From positions 1 to 21,148 of the IMG/VR virus record IMGVR_UViG_3300005515_000064: a DNA stretch of 21,148 nt. One strand, 5' to 3'. Positions 4,254-20,078 of this stretch are shown piece by piece. The stretch's first letter is position 1. Each line of letters begins with the position of its first letter. The notes beneath the pieces were generated by a model. The model worked only from the letters and a program-made list of their open reading frames with translations, did no database searches and had not been told where the DNA came from. The position numbers and the translations under genes are program-made. The stretch comes from a virus.

Positions 4254-6166
4254 CCGATCACCCAGTCGCCGTCAACCAAACCGCGCGCGTTTGTTCCACG
4301 GGAATCTTTCTGGGGAACAGCCGGAACCGAAGCTGGGGTCGCAGCCGGAAATGTTTCACGGGAATCACTCGGCGACTCCACTCCCAATCGCGCAGCCCGG
4401 GCATCCCAGTCCGCTTTGGATGCTCTATGCAGGCGGAGCTCCGGATGGTGCGTGGCCGCATAGCTGTATACCCACGTGTCGAGCGGCTCGTTGCGCGCGC
4501 CACGGCGCTTATCGAATCGGTTCTTGCTGGGGTTATAGGTTTCGCTCACCAGGCCGGTGAAGTACTCCGGCGGCAACTCGTCGCTGAAATGCACCAGGCG
4601 CGCGTCGGCTTGTTTCTCGGCGTCTGTGCTCAGGCGACTGAAGAGGAGGTGTTTGATGGCTACCGTGCCTACTGCATTGGTCAGCACGCCGCGCTTGTCC
4701 AGTTGCCCGCGCCAGTTGATGTCCTGCAGTTTGCCCTTGCCCAGCACCGGCGCGTTGTTCTGCGACGCACCAAAGATGGCCAGCGGTCGGCGGATGCGGC
4801 GCGCACGCACGAAGGACTTGACCGCCTCGGTGCGATGGCCACCGGTGTCGATCGCTGTCGCCTCCACGCGGAGCAGCCCGCCGAGCGCATGCTCAATCGG
4901 CTTGTTGAGCAGATCAACCAAGGCGACCCACACGGCCTCATCAGCGGGATCGCCCATCAGCTCGACGTAGTCCAGCGTCCAGCACGCCATGCCGCGGCCC
5001 CAGCCGGTGATGTGGACGGCCAGGCGGTTGTCCTGCGTGTCGACGCCCGCGGTGATCGCCAGCACGCCCGCCGGCGCGACACGCAGGCGATACGACTCGG
5101 CGCGGTCGGCGATGACGTTGTGCTTCACCGAGCGCATGGCCGGGTCTTCCCACGGCTCAGCCAGGCGATCGTTGACGAAGGTCTTCAGCTTTGCCGGATC
5201 GTTCTGCGCATCGCGCCACATCGCCACCAGGTCGGCCCAGCGTGGGCCCAGGCCGATCGGGTAATACAAGCAGTTGATGTGGTAGCCGCGGACCCTGCGC
5301 TCGGGGTGCGCGGGGATCCAGCGACCGGCCGCGATCATATCGGTCTTGCGATGCTCGGGGATCACGACGCCGCACTCGCGGCACGTGTACCAGACCTCGC
5401 TGCCATCAGGCGTCCAGTGCAGACCACTCCACTCCAGCGGCTGCTCGTGGCGGCAGTCCGGGCATGCGACGTGGAAGCGCCGCTGGTCGCTCTTGTTCCA
5501 AAGTTGCTCGATGCGGCTCAAACCCTGCACCTGCGGCGTGCTGATGTACAGGCGGCGGAACGTGGCCGGAAACGCTGACGTGCGGCCGTCGAGCATCGAC
5601 ACCGGATCGTCGCCACCCTGAAGATTGTTCGAGAACTCGTCGAGCTCGTCGACTACCAGGTCGCGAACCGATGTCGATTTGAGGCGGGCTGGGCTGCCGG
5701 CGTGCTCCAGGTACAACTGACCTCCGGCAAAATCCTTGAACGTGCGCTGGTTGGCCGCGTCTCGGCTGGCTACGCTGGTCAGCGCCTTGCGCATCGCAGG
5801 CGTCTCCTCCAGTGCCGGCTGCAGCTTCTGCGCGGACCATTTGCCCATCGAGACCTCGCCCGGTAGGCAAACCATGATCGGGCCGGGGTTGTGGTCCATG
5901 GTGTAGCCCATGAAGTTGACGGCCACTTCGGTCTTTCCGAACTGGATGGGAAACATCATCACCACGTCGTGCACGTTGCTGCGTAGCGACAGCGCATCCA
6001 TCGGCTCGCGCAGCGGCGGGTTGCGCGCAGTACGCCAGCGGCCCGGCTCGGCGCTGCCCTTGCTCGACAGCACGCGTTCGGCATCCGCCCACTGCGAGAC
6101 GGTGAGTGGCTTGCGCGGCGCGATCGCACGGCCGATGGCGATGTTGACTCGCGCAGCCGCCCTCAT
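4250..6166 (-). CDS. Terminase large subunit, lambda gpA family
   Basis: The 638-residue product is the DNA-packaging motor ATPase and nuclease. The Walker A-like segment is FPIQFGKT at 72-79, and the Walker B segment lies around VVDELDEF at 171-178. A zinc-binding pair of CxxC motifs sits at Cys235/238 and Cys262/265, as in many GpA proteins. The C-terminal nuclease domain shows acidic residues in GVDTQDNR (Asp376) and AIDTGGHR (Asp440), followed by NEPLDTWVY near residue 575. Length is normal for GpA, with a Ser/Ala/Pro-rich tail. Its ATG overlaps the small-subunit stop (ATGA), so the subunits are probably made in a fixed ratio. GpA terminases usually cut at a cos site, which would place a cos-type site near 6757-7074. 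Confidence 0.95.
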   Translation of the reverse strand: MRAAARVNIAIGRAIAPRKPLTVSQWADAERVLSSKGSAEPGRWRTARNPPLREPMDALSLRSNVHDVVMMFPIQFGKTEVAVNFMGYTMDHNPGPIMVCLPGEVSMGKWSAQKLQPALEETPAMRKALTSVASRDAANQRTFKDFAGGQLYLEHAGSPARLKSTSVRDLVVDELDEFSNNLQGGDDPVSMLDGRTSAFPATFRRLYISTPQVQGLSRIEQLWNKSDQRRFHVACPDCRHEQPLEWSGLHWTPDGSEVWYTCRECGVVIPEHRKTDMIAAGRWIPAHPERRVRGYHINCLYYPIGLGPRWADLVAMWRDAQNDPAKLKTFVNDRLAEPWEDPAMRSVKHNVIADRAESYRLRVAPAGVLAITAGVDTQDNRLAVHITGWGRGMACWTLDYVELMGDPADEAVWVALVDLLNKPIEHALGGLLRVEATAIDTGGHRTEAVKSFVRARRIRRPLAIFGASQNNAPVLGKGKLQDINWRGQLDKRGVLTNAVGTVAIKHLLFSRLSTDAEKQADARLVHFSDELPPEYFTGLVSETYNPSKNRFDKRRGARNEPLDTWVYSYAATHHPELRLHRASKADWDARAARLGVESPSDSRETFPAATPASVPAVPQKDSRGTNARGLVDGDWVIG

Positions 6167-6756
6167 GCCTCAGCCTCCGCTTTGCCGAGAGCTTGGAAGC
6201 GGCGCGCGGTGTCGTCCAGCGCGTGCTCGATCGTCTCCGCCATCAGCGCTCGCACGCGCCCTTCGTCAACCTCCGCAGCCAACTGCGGACCGAGGACATC
6301 GGGCAGGCTCTCCAGGCGCGTGCGCAACGTCGCGATCGCAGCGGTGACGGCAGCAACAACTTCGGCCGCGTCCAGGAGCTCGCGATCGCGCAGGCGGTTC
6401 TCTCGCTCCAGCCCCAGGGCCTTCGCGCGCTCGCTGCGTTCGCGCCAGTGCTGGTAGCCGCTGGTCGCCTGGGTGTCGTCTTCGTCGTCCTGCGTGCCGG
6501 CCGCGGGCGCGACGATGGCGCCCAGCCCCTCCCCGTGCCCCACGGGATTGCGAGCCCCCTCGTGGCGCGCGGCTACGCCTTCCTTCGACGGGTCGCGCGT
6601 GGCGGCGATGCGCGCCAGAGATTCCGCCACGCGGATGCGCTTGCCATCCTCGGTCAGGACTAGGCGGCCCGCTGCCTTGAGTTCCGTGATGTAGCTGCGC
6701 GTGCGTTCCGCGATGCGCGCGAACTCAGCGGCCGAGGCGGTCTCAGGATGGCTCAT
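6163..6756 (-). CDS. Terminase small subunit (Nu1-like)
   Basis: This 197-residue protein has an N-terminal winged-helix-like segment (residues about 8-52: EFARIAERTRSYITELKAAG, then a short wing LVLTEDGKRIRV), a flexible acidic linker (about 80-98), and a long charged helix (about 100-130, YQHWRERSERAKALGLEREN) leading into a C-terminal helical domain. That order matches Nu1-type small terminases, which bind specific DNA next to the packaging site and hand it to the large subunit. A strong Shine-Dalgarno sequence, AAGGGGAGG, lies seven bases before the ATG. Directly upstream is the inverted-repeat array at 6829-7061, which could be its binding site. Confidence 0.85.
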   Translation of the reverse strand: MSHPETASAAEFARIAERTRSYITELKAAGRLVLTEDGKRIRVAESLARIAATRDPSKEGVAARHEGARNPVGHGEGLGAIVAPAAGTQDDEDDTQATSGYQHWRERSERAKALGLERENRLRDRELLDAAEVVAAVTAAIATLRTRLESLPDVLGPQLAAEVDEGRVRALMAETIEHALDDTARRFQALGKAEAEA

Positions 6757-6828
6757 CGACCAGCCTCCCCTTCTACCTTTTCTTCAAGGCAAGGCAGCAA
6801 AAATGATTGACGCGCGCGCGAACACGAC

Positions 6829-7061
6829 TGTGCGGCATGGCGTGCGGTTCGGTGTGCGGTATGGAACCCGCGCCACGCATGGCCTGTGCGGTATGTGCGG
6901 TATGTGCGGGAGGGATGCGCATGCGCGCGCGCGCCTGCACGGGTGTGCACGCGGGCGCACGCACGCACTATAGAGAGCGTGCCGCACATACCGCACAAGC
7001 CAGCAATGGCGAGGGTTTGAAGGCGCACGCGGTACCGCACGCCATGCCGCACATACCGCAC
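6829..7061. repeat. Two-armed inverted array of GTGCGGTAT-type repeats; candidate cos/pac, origin or late control site
   Basis: The left arm has six copies in plus orientation, at 6830, 6842, 6854, 6886, 6895 and 6904; the last three are in tandem. The right arm has five inverted copies ending at 6987, 6996, 7040, 7052 and 7061. The 20 bases 6829-6848 are a perfect inverted match to 7034-7053. A 15-mer (GTGCGGTATGTGCGG) occurs at 6886-6900 and 6895-6909 and inverted at 6982-6996 and 7047-7061. The centre of symmetry is near 6945, beside a GTGCAC palindrome. Short ORFs through it are repeat translations with no protein character. The array lies between the primase-helicase and small terminase genes, where lambda-type phages keep cos upstream of Nu1. 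Confidence 0.85.
6911..6978. other. Alternating purine-pyrimidine core of the repeat array
   Basis: Between the two repeat arms the sequence alternates purine and pyrimidine in three runs: 6915-6934, 6943-6952 and 6955-6968. It includes the palindrome GCGCATGCGC (6917-6926). A further CG run lies outside the left arm at 6810-6820. Such tracts readily adopt left-handed DNA under supercoiling, and the two arms could extrude as a cruciform. A CTATAG palindrome at 6967-6972 is the only A/T-rich spot and could be part of a minus-strand promoter, but I find no -35 at proper spacing. Confidence 0.5.
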
Positions 7062-7074
7062 ACAGTTGGCCGCA

Positions 7075-9456
7075 TCAGCCATAGGTCGCCGCCTTGTAGT
7101 CCTTCACCGCGTCTCGGAACTTGCCCACCTGCTCGCCGAGCCACCCCGTCTCGCTGGAGCCATCGGGCGCGGTCTGGTCGAACATCACGATCCCGTGCGG
7201 CCCCTTGAGGTCGCTTCCCATCTGGTAGCGCTTTCGCACCGCTGGCGATCGATGCTTGCGGTCGAAGGCGTTGAGCAACTTAGGCAGCGGCGCCGGCCGA
7301 TGTCCGCCCTTGTGGCACCAGGCCTTGTAGAGCTCGTAGAGGTCCTGACTAAGGGCGGGCCTCGGGAGAATTCCACCGACATCGCGCTGCGTGAGCTCGT
7401 AGTAGAACCGGCTCGTGCTATCGAGGCTGAGGTTCACCAGCTCGTTCTTCGCCGCCGTCATCGGCGGCAAAGTCCCCGGCCCGAAATCGCCAAGGTCCAG
7501 GTGCAGCAGGTGGTCGTGCAATGCAGCGACGCCGCCGCCTTCGATCTCGGCCAACAACGCTAGGTAGAAGTCGCGCTCCAGCTTCTCCGGCGTCCAGATC
7601 ACCGTGTGCCGTCGGTCGTCCTCTTCGAGCACGACCGGCATGGCTTCGTTCGACAGGAACACGACGTTCACGTGGTTGCGCTCGTCGTAGGCCGCCATGT
7701 TCTTCGGGTTGATGCGGATCCACTCGCCCGTGATGAACGCCTTGAGCTTGTTCTTCACGTGGTACAGGTCCGACCTGGCCACGACTTCGTCGGCGATCAG
7801 AAATAGCTTGCGGCTCGCCCAATCGTTGAAGCGGTCCTCGATCGCGCTCTGATCGATCACGCGACCGTATCGGCCGTAGATCGCCATGAGCGCTTCGAAG
7901 AACATGTTCTTGCCGGTGCCCTGCGGGCCGTGCAGAACCAGCGTCGTCTTCATCTTCGCGCCGGGATGCTGGAGCGGGTATGCGATCCAACGGATCACCC
8001 AGTCGTACAGCACCTTGCTGTTCCGCTCGGCGCTGCACATGTACGCGAGCAGCTCCAGCAGGCGCTCGCACTTCCCTGCCTTCGGCGTCGTCGGCCAGCC
8101 GGCCCACAGGTTGCACGTGATATTCGGATCGTCATCGGCGGGGTCGAATCCGACTTCTGACACGCGCACGATCGATCGCTCCGGATGCTCTTGCCAGGCC
8201 CGATGCGTGTCACGCGACATGCACGCGTCGCGCATGTCCGACAACGCGAGCAGGCAGTGTTCCTGTCGATCGAAGACCGTGCCGCCTTGACCGAATACCA
8301 GCGCGAATCGGTCGAGCAGTTCGTCGAGCGTTTCGATCGGGCGCAGTGCGCTCCCCTGCCCCCCGGTGTTGGAAGGCACGCGCGGCTGGCGCGCCGCGGA
8401 TGACCAACCGAGATCCGAGAGGCGGGCCTCGATCTGGGAACGCACGACGTGCAGGCCTTCGGCCGCGTGCAGGTCGTTGAAGTCGCTTGCCTTGCGGCCA
8501 TGTTCGAGGAACGCCGCCTGGCGTGCCGACTCCCCTCGGAACTGCGGCACCACCCACGCGCCGCTAACCTCCAGCGCTGCGGCGCTCGCCGCCGTCACGC
8601 CAGTGTTCGTGCGCGTGTGCGGCGCACCGCAGTGCGGGCAGTCGTGCGGGTGCTGAGGGAGCACGACGCGGCCGTGGCAGCCGATGCACTTGCCGTAGAT
8701 GTCGTCGTCGGCGCAGATCAGCACGCGCGCCTGCTTGTAGCGCTTGTGCAGCGCGGCGGCGACCGCCCCGAGGTTGCCGGCGTCGAACGCTACAGCAACC
8801 GGAAAGCCCGTGGCCTCGTGTAGCGTCGCCGCCGTCGCATACCCTTCCGCCACGAGCACGATCCAGCTGGGCGCGCCGATCAGGTGGAAGTGGCCCTTGG
8901 TGGCCACGCCGCGCGGCCAGTATTCCTTGTCGCGCTGGCCAGGCTTCGCCGCCTTGCCGCGGATGATCTGCAGGCCGTGGATCTTGCCCGAGGCATCGAG
9001 CATCGGCACGGCGATCGCGCCCGAAGGCGAGAAGCGAACACCGTGCGCGATGACGCCCTTGCGCACCAGGTACTCGCTGTCTCCGGTTGCCGAGCACGCC
9101 GTCCATGCCTTCGCCGCCGCCGCAGCCGCGCGTTCCGCTTCTGCCTTGCGCACGCACTCTGCGCGCTTGCGGTCTTCAGCTAGGCGGCGGCGCAGCGCTT
9201 CGCGCTGCTCGCGACTGACTTCGCGCTTGCGCAGTTCCACCTTCGTGGCGCCGTTGTCGTTGCCGTGCCACTGGCCAAAGCTGCCGACGAGCACGTCGTC
9301 GCCGTCGTCCAGGCGCAGCTCGTGCAGGCTGTACCAGCCGCGCTTCTCGCGGTCGCCCTCCACCTTCGTTCGAACCATGCGTCCGATCTGCAGGGTGTCG
9401 ACCACTAGGCCGGCTTCGCGCAGCTGCTGCAGGACGTCGTCGTAATTGGCAGCCAT
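7075..9456 (-). CDS. Phage primase-helicase (Toprim plus SF3/DUF5906-type helicase)
   Basis: This 793-residue replication protein joins two activities. The N-terminal half holds a Toprim-type domain: EGYATA at 204-209 and ADDD at 249-252, with an inserted zinc ribbon (Cys257/260 and Cys273/276) right after the acidic motif. The C-terminal half is a superfamily 3 helicase: Walker A GPQGTGKN at 510-517, Walker B LFLIADE at 551-557, and the sensor-like stretch VVFLSNE at 598-604. It would make primers and unwind DNA at the phage origin. A coiled charged segment spans about 75-115. The ATG has GGAG nine bases upstream. It is the last gene of the early minus-strand operon and ends 14 bases before the repeat array. 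Confidence 0.93.
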   Translation of the reverse strand: MAANYDDVLQQLREAGLVVDTLQIGRMVRTKVEGDREKRGWYSLHELRLDDGDDVLVGSFGQWHGNDNGATKVELRKREVSREQREALRRRLAEDRKRAECVRKAEAERAAAAAAKAWTACSATGDSEYLVRKGVIAHGVRFSPSGAIAVPMLDASGKIHGLQIIRGKAAKPGQRDKEYWPRGVATKGHFHLIGAPSWIVLVAEGYATAATLHEATGFPVAVAFDAGNLGAVAAALHKRYKQARVLICADDDIYGKCIGCHGRVVLPQHPHDCPHCGAPHTRTNTGVTAASAAALEVSGAWVVPQFRGESARQAAFLEHGRKASDFNDLHAAEGLHVVRSQIEARLSDLGWSSAARQPRVPSNTGGQGSALRPIETLDELLDRFALVFGQGGTVFDRQEHCLLALSDMRDACMSRDTHRAWQEHPERSIVRVSEVGFDPADDDPNITCNLWAGWPTTPKAGKCERLLELLAYMCSAERNSKVLYDWVIRWIAYPLQHPGAKMKTTLVLHGPQGTGKNMFFEALMAIYGRYGRVIDQSAIEDRFNDWASRKLFLIADEVVARSDLYHVKNKLKAFITGEWIRINPKNMAAYDERNHVNVVFLSNEAMPVVLEEDDRRHTVIWTPEKLERDFYLALLAEIEGGGVAALHDHLLHLDLGDFGPGTLPPMTAAKNELVNLSLDSTSRFYYELTQRDVGGILPRPALSQDLYELYKAWCHKGGHRPAPLPKLLNAFDRKHRSPAVRKRYQMGSDLKGPHGIVMFDQTAPDGSSETGWLGEQVGKFRDAVKDYKAATYG

Positions 9457-18500: not shown

Positions 18501-18974
18501 TCACGTCTCTCCTTCGATCTCCATCAGCGTTCGCAATCCATCGACGATCTTCACGATCTCTTTGTAATAGCTGATCACGCGCACGAGGGTCACATCGCCC
18601 GGCTTGCCATGAGCAATCCCATGGCGAAGCGCGACCAGGCTGTCGATGGCGTCTTTTCGCTCGTCAGCGATCAGAGTTTCCAATGCAGCTTTCCAGCGCG
18701 GATCAAACGCAAGCAAGTGACTCGAAAGCTTTCCAGACTTAAGATTCGTTAAATTCGTTATTGACTGGGTCACGAAGTTCGAAACAACCGGAGAAGCACG
18801 CTTCGAAACATACTCCGTAGTGAAATTCTTCACCGTTTGATCAAGAAACCCCGAAACCAGAACGCACAGTAAGCGCGCGAAATCGGCCCTGAGCTCAATC
18901 TCTCCCGGATCAATCTTTCCCGCGCGGGCAAACGTCGCGTCGAGAGCAGCTTTCAAAGACGCATGCCGCTTCAT
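18501..18974 (-). CDS. HEPN-domain RNase-like protein (RiboL-PSP-HEPN type)
   Basis: The 157-residue protein is mostly helical and carries R-x4-H as ALRHGIAHGK, with Arg117 and His122. This is the catalytic signature of HEPN ribonucleases. The preceding helix (ETLIADERKDAIDSLVALRH) and the following one (LVRVISYYKEIVKIVDGL) complete the typical four-helix bundle; the text is closest in style to RiboL-PSP or MAE_28990/MAE_18760 HEPN families. These proteins usually cut RNA as dimers and act as toxins in abortive infection or toxin-antitoxin pairs. The start is three bases after the DUF262 stop, so the two are coupled. It converges with the integrase gene. The region is richer in A/T than the phage core, suggesting separate acquisition. 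Confidence 0.82.
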   Translation of the reverse strand: MKRHASLKAALDATFARAGKIDPGEIELRADFARLLCVLVSGFLDQTVKNFTTEYVSKRASPVVSNFVTQSITNLTNLKSGKLSSHLLAFDPRWKAALETLIADERKDAIDSLVALRHGIAHGKPGDVTLVRVISYYKEIVKIVDGLRTLMEIEGET

Positions 18975-18977
18975 CGG

Positions 18978-20078
18978 CTACACCGCGGCGAATGCGGCCG
19001 TGGCCAGCTTCAGTCTCGAAGCAACCTGATCTTCTCTGGCGGTTGCCTTGCTAACTGCATAGAGATAGTCAGTGTCGGAAAGCAGCCGGAAGTACGCCTC
19101 ACCAATTTTTCCCACATCGGCAGGCACTCCAGTGGCAAGCCGACGCGCGAGGCCGACCATGACCGAATCGAACACCGCGGCATTGAGTGCGTTCTTGAGG
19201 CGGAAGGGTTTGCTTCCGACAGCCTGAACGATCTTATGAATGGTGCCGCGAAACGCGTGAACGATGTCGTTGGCGGATTCTTGAGAAAGATCTTTGTTGT
19301 GCTGAGCGTAAGCAGTCAAAAAGTCCTTCATGGGACTTTCGTAAGGAATCGGCGCGAAGAAGAGCGCGATGAACCGGAGTATAAGTTCGTGGTCCTTCAG
19401 ACTTTTCGATGGACTTCCGAACGCACCTCGCCAGTACGTGTCGTTATTTAGCTCGCGCACCAGATGCATCAGCGGTCCGGGCACCAACGCGACGCGGATC
19501 TCATGCGGCGAGAGCCTCGTGCCGCCGGAGTTGAGCCTCTCAAAAAGCGTGTAGATGCTGGAAAGATCCTGCGAATCCTGTGTTTTCTTGATCACCGTTG
19601 CATGAATTATTGCATCGTCCAAAGTGCGACGCTGATCCTCGTCAAGGGTTGAGTACCCTTTCCCGCGAAATTGCTGTTGGACGTTCTCGAGAAGGAACTC
19701 CTTCTTGTTCAGGACGCCTGAATAGAACGCCGCAAGCGTCAGTAGCCGCTGCTGCCCATCCAGAACGAGCAACCGCCTGTTGGACTCCTGGACTAAGAAG
19801 ATCCCGGGCACCGGAAGGCCGAGCAGAAGCGATTCCACGAAACGTTCACTCTGCAGCTTCGTCCAGATGAACTTGCGCTGGAAGGCTTCAACTTCCAAAG
19901 GCATCTCGCTCGCCGGGTCGAACGACGGGATTACGACATCCCTGTTCTTGAGTCGCTTAACGAGACCGTCTACCGGGTAGTCCGCGCCGTAGAAGGTGAG
20001 GTCAAATTTGTATTCCGTCGACTCTTCCGCAACTTCCGAATCGTCGATGGGCTGATCTTCAAGCTCTTCAGGACACAT
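18978..20078 (-). CDS. DUF262 protein (ParB/Srx-like nucleotide-binding family), defence-associated
   Basis: The 366-residue protein has the DUF262 hallmarks in order: QRKFIW (67-72), SLLLGLPVPGIFLV (83-96), LVLDGQQRLLTL (104-115) with the invariant DGQQR, and FERLNSGGTRLSPHEIR (179-195). It is the length of a DUF262-only protein; the DUF1524 HNH nuclease domain of GmrSD is absent. DUF262 domains hydrolyse or sense nucleotides and act as the sensor or regulatory half of modification-dependent systems such as GmrSD, BrxU and SspE. Here a HEPN protein takes the place of the nuclease. AGGTGAT lies about eight bases before the ATG. Which trigger it senses is not visible. Confidence 0.9.
   Translation of the reverse strand: MCPEELEDQPIDDSEVAEESTEYKFDLTFYGADYPVDGLVKRLKNRDVVIPSFDPASEMPLEVEAFQRKFIWTKLQSERFVESLLLGLPVPGIFLVQESNRRLLVLDGQQRLLTLAAFYSGVLNKKEFLLENVQQQFRGKGYSTLDEDQRRTLDDAIIHATVIKKTQDSQDLSSIYTLFERLNSGGTRLSPHEIRVALVPGPLMHLVRELNNDTYWRGAFGSPSKSLKDHELILRFIALFFAPIPYESPMKDFLTAYAQHNKDLSQESANDIVHAFRGTIHKIVQAVGSKPFRLKNALNAAVFDSVMVGLARRLATGVPADVGKIGEAYFRLLSDTDYLYAVSKATAREDQVASRLKLATAAFAAV

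Follow-up and report, generated by a model that had tools for sequence, protein, structure and literature searches.

The SF3 initiators SaPI Rep, P4 alpha and Cch2 use a C-terminal domain to bind iterons that adjoin their own genes, and they load as rings (PMC6092414). In SaPIs and PICIs, as we propose for the locus described here, the origin lies immediately 3' of the initiator gene and holds two iteron sets, which are read by the C-terminal domain of the initiator (PMC6092414, PMC7581432), and this two-armed layout has been called unique to PICIs (PMC6092414). In SCCmec, the C-terminal domain of the helicase Cch2 binds repeats directly downstream of its own gene (PMC7581432), a binding which at our locus we infer. 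The origin of the crenarchaeal plasmid pRN1 is likewise found 3' of the gene for a primase-SF3 helicase-winged-helix protein (ORF904), and an origin 3' of such genes, described as a stem-loop only, was foreseen for Bordetella phage BIP-1 (PMC4234260). The crr of phage P4 is located 45 bp downstream of the alpha gene and contains TGTTCAC repeats spaced 9 bp apart in both orientations.

The locus analyzed here lies within a viral record of 21,148 nucleotides (IMGVR_UViG_3300005515_000064), all of which we refer to as the window. An array of inverted repeats is located between the primase-helicase gene and the small terminase gene, in agreement with the coordinates given in the original prediction, and the features of the region are collected in Table 1. 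Beyond TerL, a portal gene and a ClpP-like/capsid gene follow on the minus strand. TerS signals or a separate cos may be located in the segment that divides the array from TerS. Two minus-strand genes are found between the integrase and the record end, a GmrSD/DUF262-like gene (18978-20078) matching the PADLOC models NsnA (2.6e-58) and PD-T4-2_A, and its partner, a small gene without a match (18501-18974), which together are a candidate prophage-borne defence pair. Past the integrase and these genes, near the record end, is a tRNA-Lys (TTT; 21029-21104, minus strand) that is a possible prophage attachment site. A known RNA family was also considered for the array and rejected, this tRNA being the only match.

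Table 1. Features of the putative origin locus and its flanking genes (window coordinates)
Feature	Position	Strand	Remarks
TerL	6166-4250	-	lambda gpA type
TerS, terminase small subunit	6163..6756	-	phrog_57; neighbour of the array, not its partner
Segment between array and TerS	6757..6828	.	G+C run at 6811-6820, then T-rich/A-rich stretch
Arm A, six TGTGCGG-type iterons	6829..6909	+	starts at 6829, 6841, 6853, 6885, 6894, 6903
Core, about 72 bp between the arms	6910..6981	.	73% G+C, CG/CA alternation
Arm B, five TGTGCGG-type iterons	6982..7062	-	7062-7056, 7053-7047, 7041-7035, 6997-6991, 6988-6982
Arm B, degenerate sixth iteron	7029-7023	-	
Primase / SF3 helicase, 793 aa	7075..9456	-	proposed initiator; 3' end 12 bp from the array
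Primase C-terminal winged-helix domain (predicted), residues 691-793	7078..7386	-	proposed iteron reader
CII-like regulator	10681-10115	-	

The array extends from 6829 to 7062. Its eleven GTGCGG units, six on the plus strand (starting at 6830, 6842, 6854, 6886, 6895 and 6904) and five inverted as CCGCAC (starting at 6982, 6991, 7035, 7047 and 7056), were all found where they had been reported, and the degenerate unit, which differs from its neighbour by a single mismatch, completes the second arm at six as well (6+6). The iterons of arm A point toward the core and follow each other at spacings of 12, 12, 32, 9 and 9 bp. The longest inverted repeat pairs 6829-6900 with 6982-7053 over 72 nt at 81% complementarity, and the perfect 20-base inverted match noted earlier between 6829-6848 and 7034-7053 is present in the sequence. 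A repeated 15-mer does occur four times as described, but it is actually a 16-mer, TGTGCGGTATGTGCGG. The G+C-rich, alternating composition that had led to the core being called Z-DNA-prone is likewise real, but relatives have no consistently special core composition and the Z-DNA idea is unsupported; the core sequence has no AT-rich melting region. In 2000 dinucleotide shuffles GTGCGG was found 0.85 times on average and at most five times, compared with the 11 observed, and even the commonest 6-mer of any sequence averaged 4.5 copies with a maximum of nine. The array was the top k-mer cluster in the whole window, and neither the window nor the complete genome of the related phage S1 contained a second cluster of its unit.

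About 130 relatives of the primase-helicase were gathered, five from bacterial genomes and about 120 from viral contigs, with S1, P4 and others taken from an annotated phage collection. Enough DNA downstream of the primase was available at 107 loci, whose identity to the nearest query ranged from 44 to 98%. A two-armed array of 9-bp repeats lay directly 3' of the primase stop codon in about 100 of these 107 loci, usually starting within about 65 bp of the stop and spanning about 240 bp, and it was usually the strongest k-mer cluster of its locus. The clear failure was a decayed primase fragment from Lysobacter (L010), where the array was absent; L103, L109 and L130 were weak. The distance from the primase stop to TerS varied from 248 to 2374 bp, and the array remained at the primase throughout. 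It was kept with P27-type terminases (in PG1, a P27-family TerS is 2 kb off), was found at a locus whose TerL is 28% identical (L049), and was present by inspection in Turba and SC_9. The phages and prophages that carry arrays come from Xanthomonadales, Burkholderiales, Pseudomonas, Halomonas and Moraxella, and no plasmid relatives of the primase were found.

One of these relatives, Stenotrophomonas phage S1 (L005), is a complete siphophage; GC skew across its genome was uninformative and gave no origin signal. Its gp2, annotated as a 'hypothetical protein' (L005:2454-2804), is an open frame spanning the iterons, and it is unlikely to be a real gene. The fragment in Lysobacter sp. MMG2 (L010:6001-6756) is 96% identical to the primase over residues 152-371 and is accompanied by neither array nor terminase; it is a prophage remnant, a hint that the host of the phage in the window may be Lysobacter-like. 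In Bordetella phage BPP-1, a near-identical sibling of BIP-1, TTGCCTCGT units form a miniature 2+2 array around a palindromic core (L141:2050-2680, about 26.55-27.18 kb); it is some 0.5 kb past the 3' end of the primase gene, in the region where the BIP-1 origin had been foreseen.

The layout of the arrays is conserved and the repeat sequence is diverse. Across 79 representatives, 908 of 956 iterons (95%) were in the expected, inward orientation, the dominant spacings were 9 and 12 bp, and the commonest arm sizes were 6+6. The mean AT fraction across the family was 0.42 in the core and 0.40 in the arms. We found 31 different 7-bp iteron cores, such as TGTGCGG, TGTGCAG, TGTGCCG, TGTGAGG, TGTCGGC and TGTTCCG, and the units within one array change together. 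In two arrays (L034:2462-2551 and L045:8384-8493) the outermost units are still TGTGCCGG, and the inner units are now TGTGCAGG or TGAGACGG. These mixed arrays look like a change caught midway and suggest that arrays convert stepwise.

In order to see which protein reads the iterons, iteron distances were compared with protein distances by partial Mantel tests over 60 loci. With the rest of the primase controlled, iteron distance tracked its C-terminal region (r = 0.281, p = 0.001); the body of the primase gave no correlation once the C-terminus was controlled (r = 0.008, p = 0.47). For TerS there was none when either the primase body (r = 0.062, p = 0.2) or the C-terminus (r = -0.033, p = 0.65) was controlled. 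Of the two partners that the original prediction had considered for the unit, covariation was thus seen with the primase and not with the terminase. Of all alignment columns, residue 755 predicted iteron base 6 best (leave-one-out accuracy 82%, baseline 53%), and eight of the 12 best predictor columns fell within the last 103 residues, 691-793 (P = 6.5e-5). In the well-registered set, a G at base 6 was accompanied by Gly, Ala or Ser at 755 in 30 of 30 representatives, an A by Thr in 11 of 18 and a C by Arg in four of nine; the exceptions include a C with Ala (L008) and some base-A loci with Phe, Met, Asn, Val or Ala. The iteron register of the most divergent loci is uncertain and they were excluded from these residue statistics, and mutual information at iteron positions 2-4 was not used, since kinship and doubtful register confound it.

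A tree from which the C-terminus had been omitted gave about 15 changes at base 6. The independent pairs on that tree, which are few, agree with the code or are neutral and none contradicts it; a tree-corrected sign test on supported branches alone gave p values of 0.03-0.5 depending on residue class, again from few pairs. One close comparison is provided by L034 (TGTGCAGGG) and L042 (TGTGCCGGG), whose primases are 95-100% identical over residues 1-640 and 87% identical over 641-793; the C-terminal differences lie within residues 693-775, and the iterons differ from C to A at base 6.

The primase of the window comprises a Toprim domain with the EGYATA motif at residues 204-209 and a DUF5906/VapE-like SF3 helicase. 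Its last 103 residues are predicted to form a winged helix (pLDDT 93) with a recognition helix at 724-735 and a wing at 739-757, and residue 755 (codon 7192-7194) falls in the predicted wing. The full-length model was used for the C-terminus only, and its pLDDT is below 50 at residues 531-613 in the helicase. Fold matches of the C-terminal domain included the RFX DNA-binding domain (Z 5.4), ORC/Cdc6 winged helices (Z 4-5) and the C-terminus of ASFV PrimPol (Z 4.4); since these are only middling, they back a winged-helix fold in general and do not point to any particular relative. Among the fold matches listed, the origin-binding domain of P4 was absent.

From these data we consider it probable, at roughly 85%, that the array is the iteron replication origin of a temperate siphophage, where the C-terminal winged helix of the adjacent primase-helicase recognizes the 9-bp iterons and two SF3 rings would load. 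An origin for this protein had been one of the options in the original prediction, and it is supported by the fixed position of the array at the primase, by its layout and by the covariation with the C-terminus. We infer that the protein binds the array directly and loads there as rings, and that the array is active as an origin and works in both directions. As a working model, the winged helix would dock on the iterons 3' of its own gene, the roughly six sites in each of the opposed arms would allow two oppositely oriented SF3 helicase rings to assemble facing each other, and the two rings would then open the core so that priming could start both ways. Since the core is G+C-rich, the melting of AT-rich DNA between the arms that has been proposed for PICIs does not directly apply. 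More tentatively, and with somewhat less than even confidence, we propose that complete temperate siphophages of many proteobacteria share a two-armed origin for two helicase hexamers (6+6), whose specificity diversifies fast through a wing code (residue 755 to base 6) and yields dozens of origins that do not cross-react.

TerL of the window is of the lambda gpA type, for which the classical place of cos is upstream of TerS, and this is where the array lies. As in lambda cosB, with its R sites, repeated sites here adjoin the small terminase gene, and the array might be a packaging site of this kind, with R-site-like repeats bound by the small terminase. However, the lambda sites are terminase sites, and the array described here is symmetric and two-armed, holds to the primase stop as TerS moves, occurs also in phages whose P27-type TerS is 2 kb further away, and has a unit without residual correlation with TerS. 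Because linkage and covariation are both with the primase, we reject the R-site reading of the original prediction as extremely improbable. A combined site, in which the array serves replication and the 70 bp beside TerS serve packaging (cos/pac), would fit the short-gap relatives, where the intergenic space consists of the array and a short G+C run/T-rich segment before TerS and nothing else. The segment adjoining the array differs when other genes intervene, however, and no cos-like feature was identified, so that we regard such a double function as rather unlikely.

A different kind of explanation is that a single hairpin is the functional element, as an RNA terminator or attenuator or as a DNA stem-loop origin like that of pRN1, which lies 3' of a primase-helicase gene (PMC4234260), with the repeats only forming the stem. 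The window strand does fold well (-102.6 kcal/mol compared with -68.8 for shuffles, z = -9.5), but the repeats of one arm change jointly, which a stem does not require, and the array has no Rfam match. In relatives, complementarity between the spacers of one arm and those of the other was 0.484 compared with 0.460 in shuffles, with eight of 58 above the 95th percentile, so that they are not clearly complementary beyond chance and do not form a conserved continuous stem-loop of the pRN1 type. A simple hairpin or terminator was rejected on this lack of conserved spacer pairing, and we consider a functional hairpin very improbable. P4, which carries both crr and a separate ori1, provides a precedent for the array being a site of the primase-helicase other than the origin (autoregulatory, for copy control or incompatibility, or accessory like crr), with the true origin elsewhere. 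The single unit cluster in both the window and the complete S1 genome speaks against this, as does the finding that a PICI rep-ori segment needs no more than one such array to replicate (PMC6092414), and we hold it to be improbable.

An iteron origin read by the primase-helicase would provide many temperate phages with an origin and an initiator where the literature searched describes none. A layout described as unique to satellite islands would belong also to full phages, which bears on the source of the replication modules of satellites. About 30 natural origin/initiator pairs offer a recognition code that is addressable by single residues and single bases, and the diversity suggests that prophages could coexist, each replicating independently, if their iterons differ.

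The systems described above are the closest known ones. In P4, the alpha protein also joins a Toprim primase (EGYATA) to an SF3 helicase and is homologous at 23% identity, and the crr, directly 3' of its gene, also has iterons beginning with TGT at 9-bp spacing in both orientations. In contrast, P4 is a satellite, its crr consists of two 120-bp repeats and a separate ori1 carries crr iterons, whereas the window has one array of about 6+6 and, like S1, lacks a second cluster. P4 alpha has an N-terminal zinc ribbon (PF08273) and a Pox_D5 C-terminus; neither was detected in the window primase, in which the Pfam Pox_D5 model gave no hit. PICIs have an AT-rich region between their two groups of iterons and do not carry all of the virion genes, whereas the core here is 73% G+C (family mean AT 0.42), the window has TerS, TerL, a portal and a ClpP-like/capsid gene, and S1 is a complete siphophage. 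The pRN1 origin is a stem-loop without iterons served by an archaeo-eukaryotic primase, in contrast to the iterons and Toprim primase here, and SCCmec Cch2 has three direct repeats only and is not fused to a Toprim primase. Because the zinc ribbon and ori1 of P4 are missing, and the AT-rich core and lack of virion genes of PICIs do not apply, we did not file the locus under either group. The array would work like the origins of P4 and of SaPIs/PICIs and is a member of neither, being distinguished by its presence in complete siphophages, its core that is not AT-rich and its highly diverse, co-evolving specificity.
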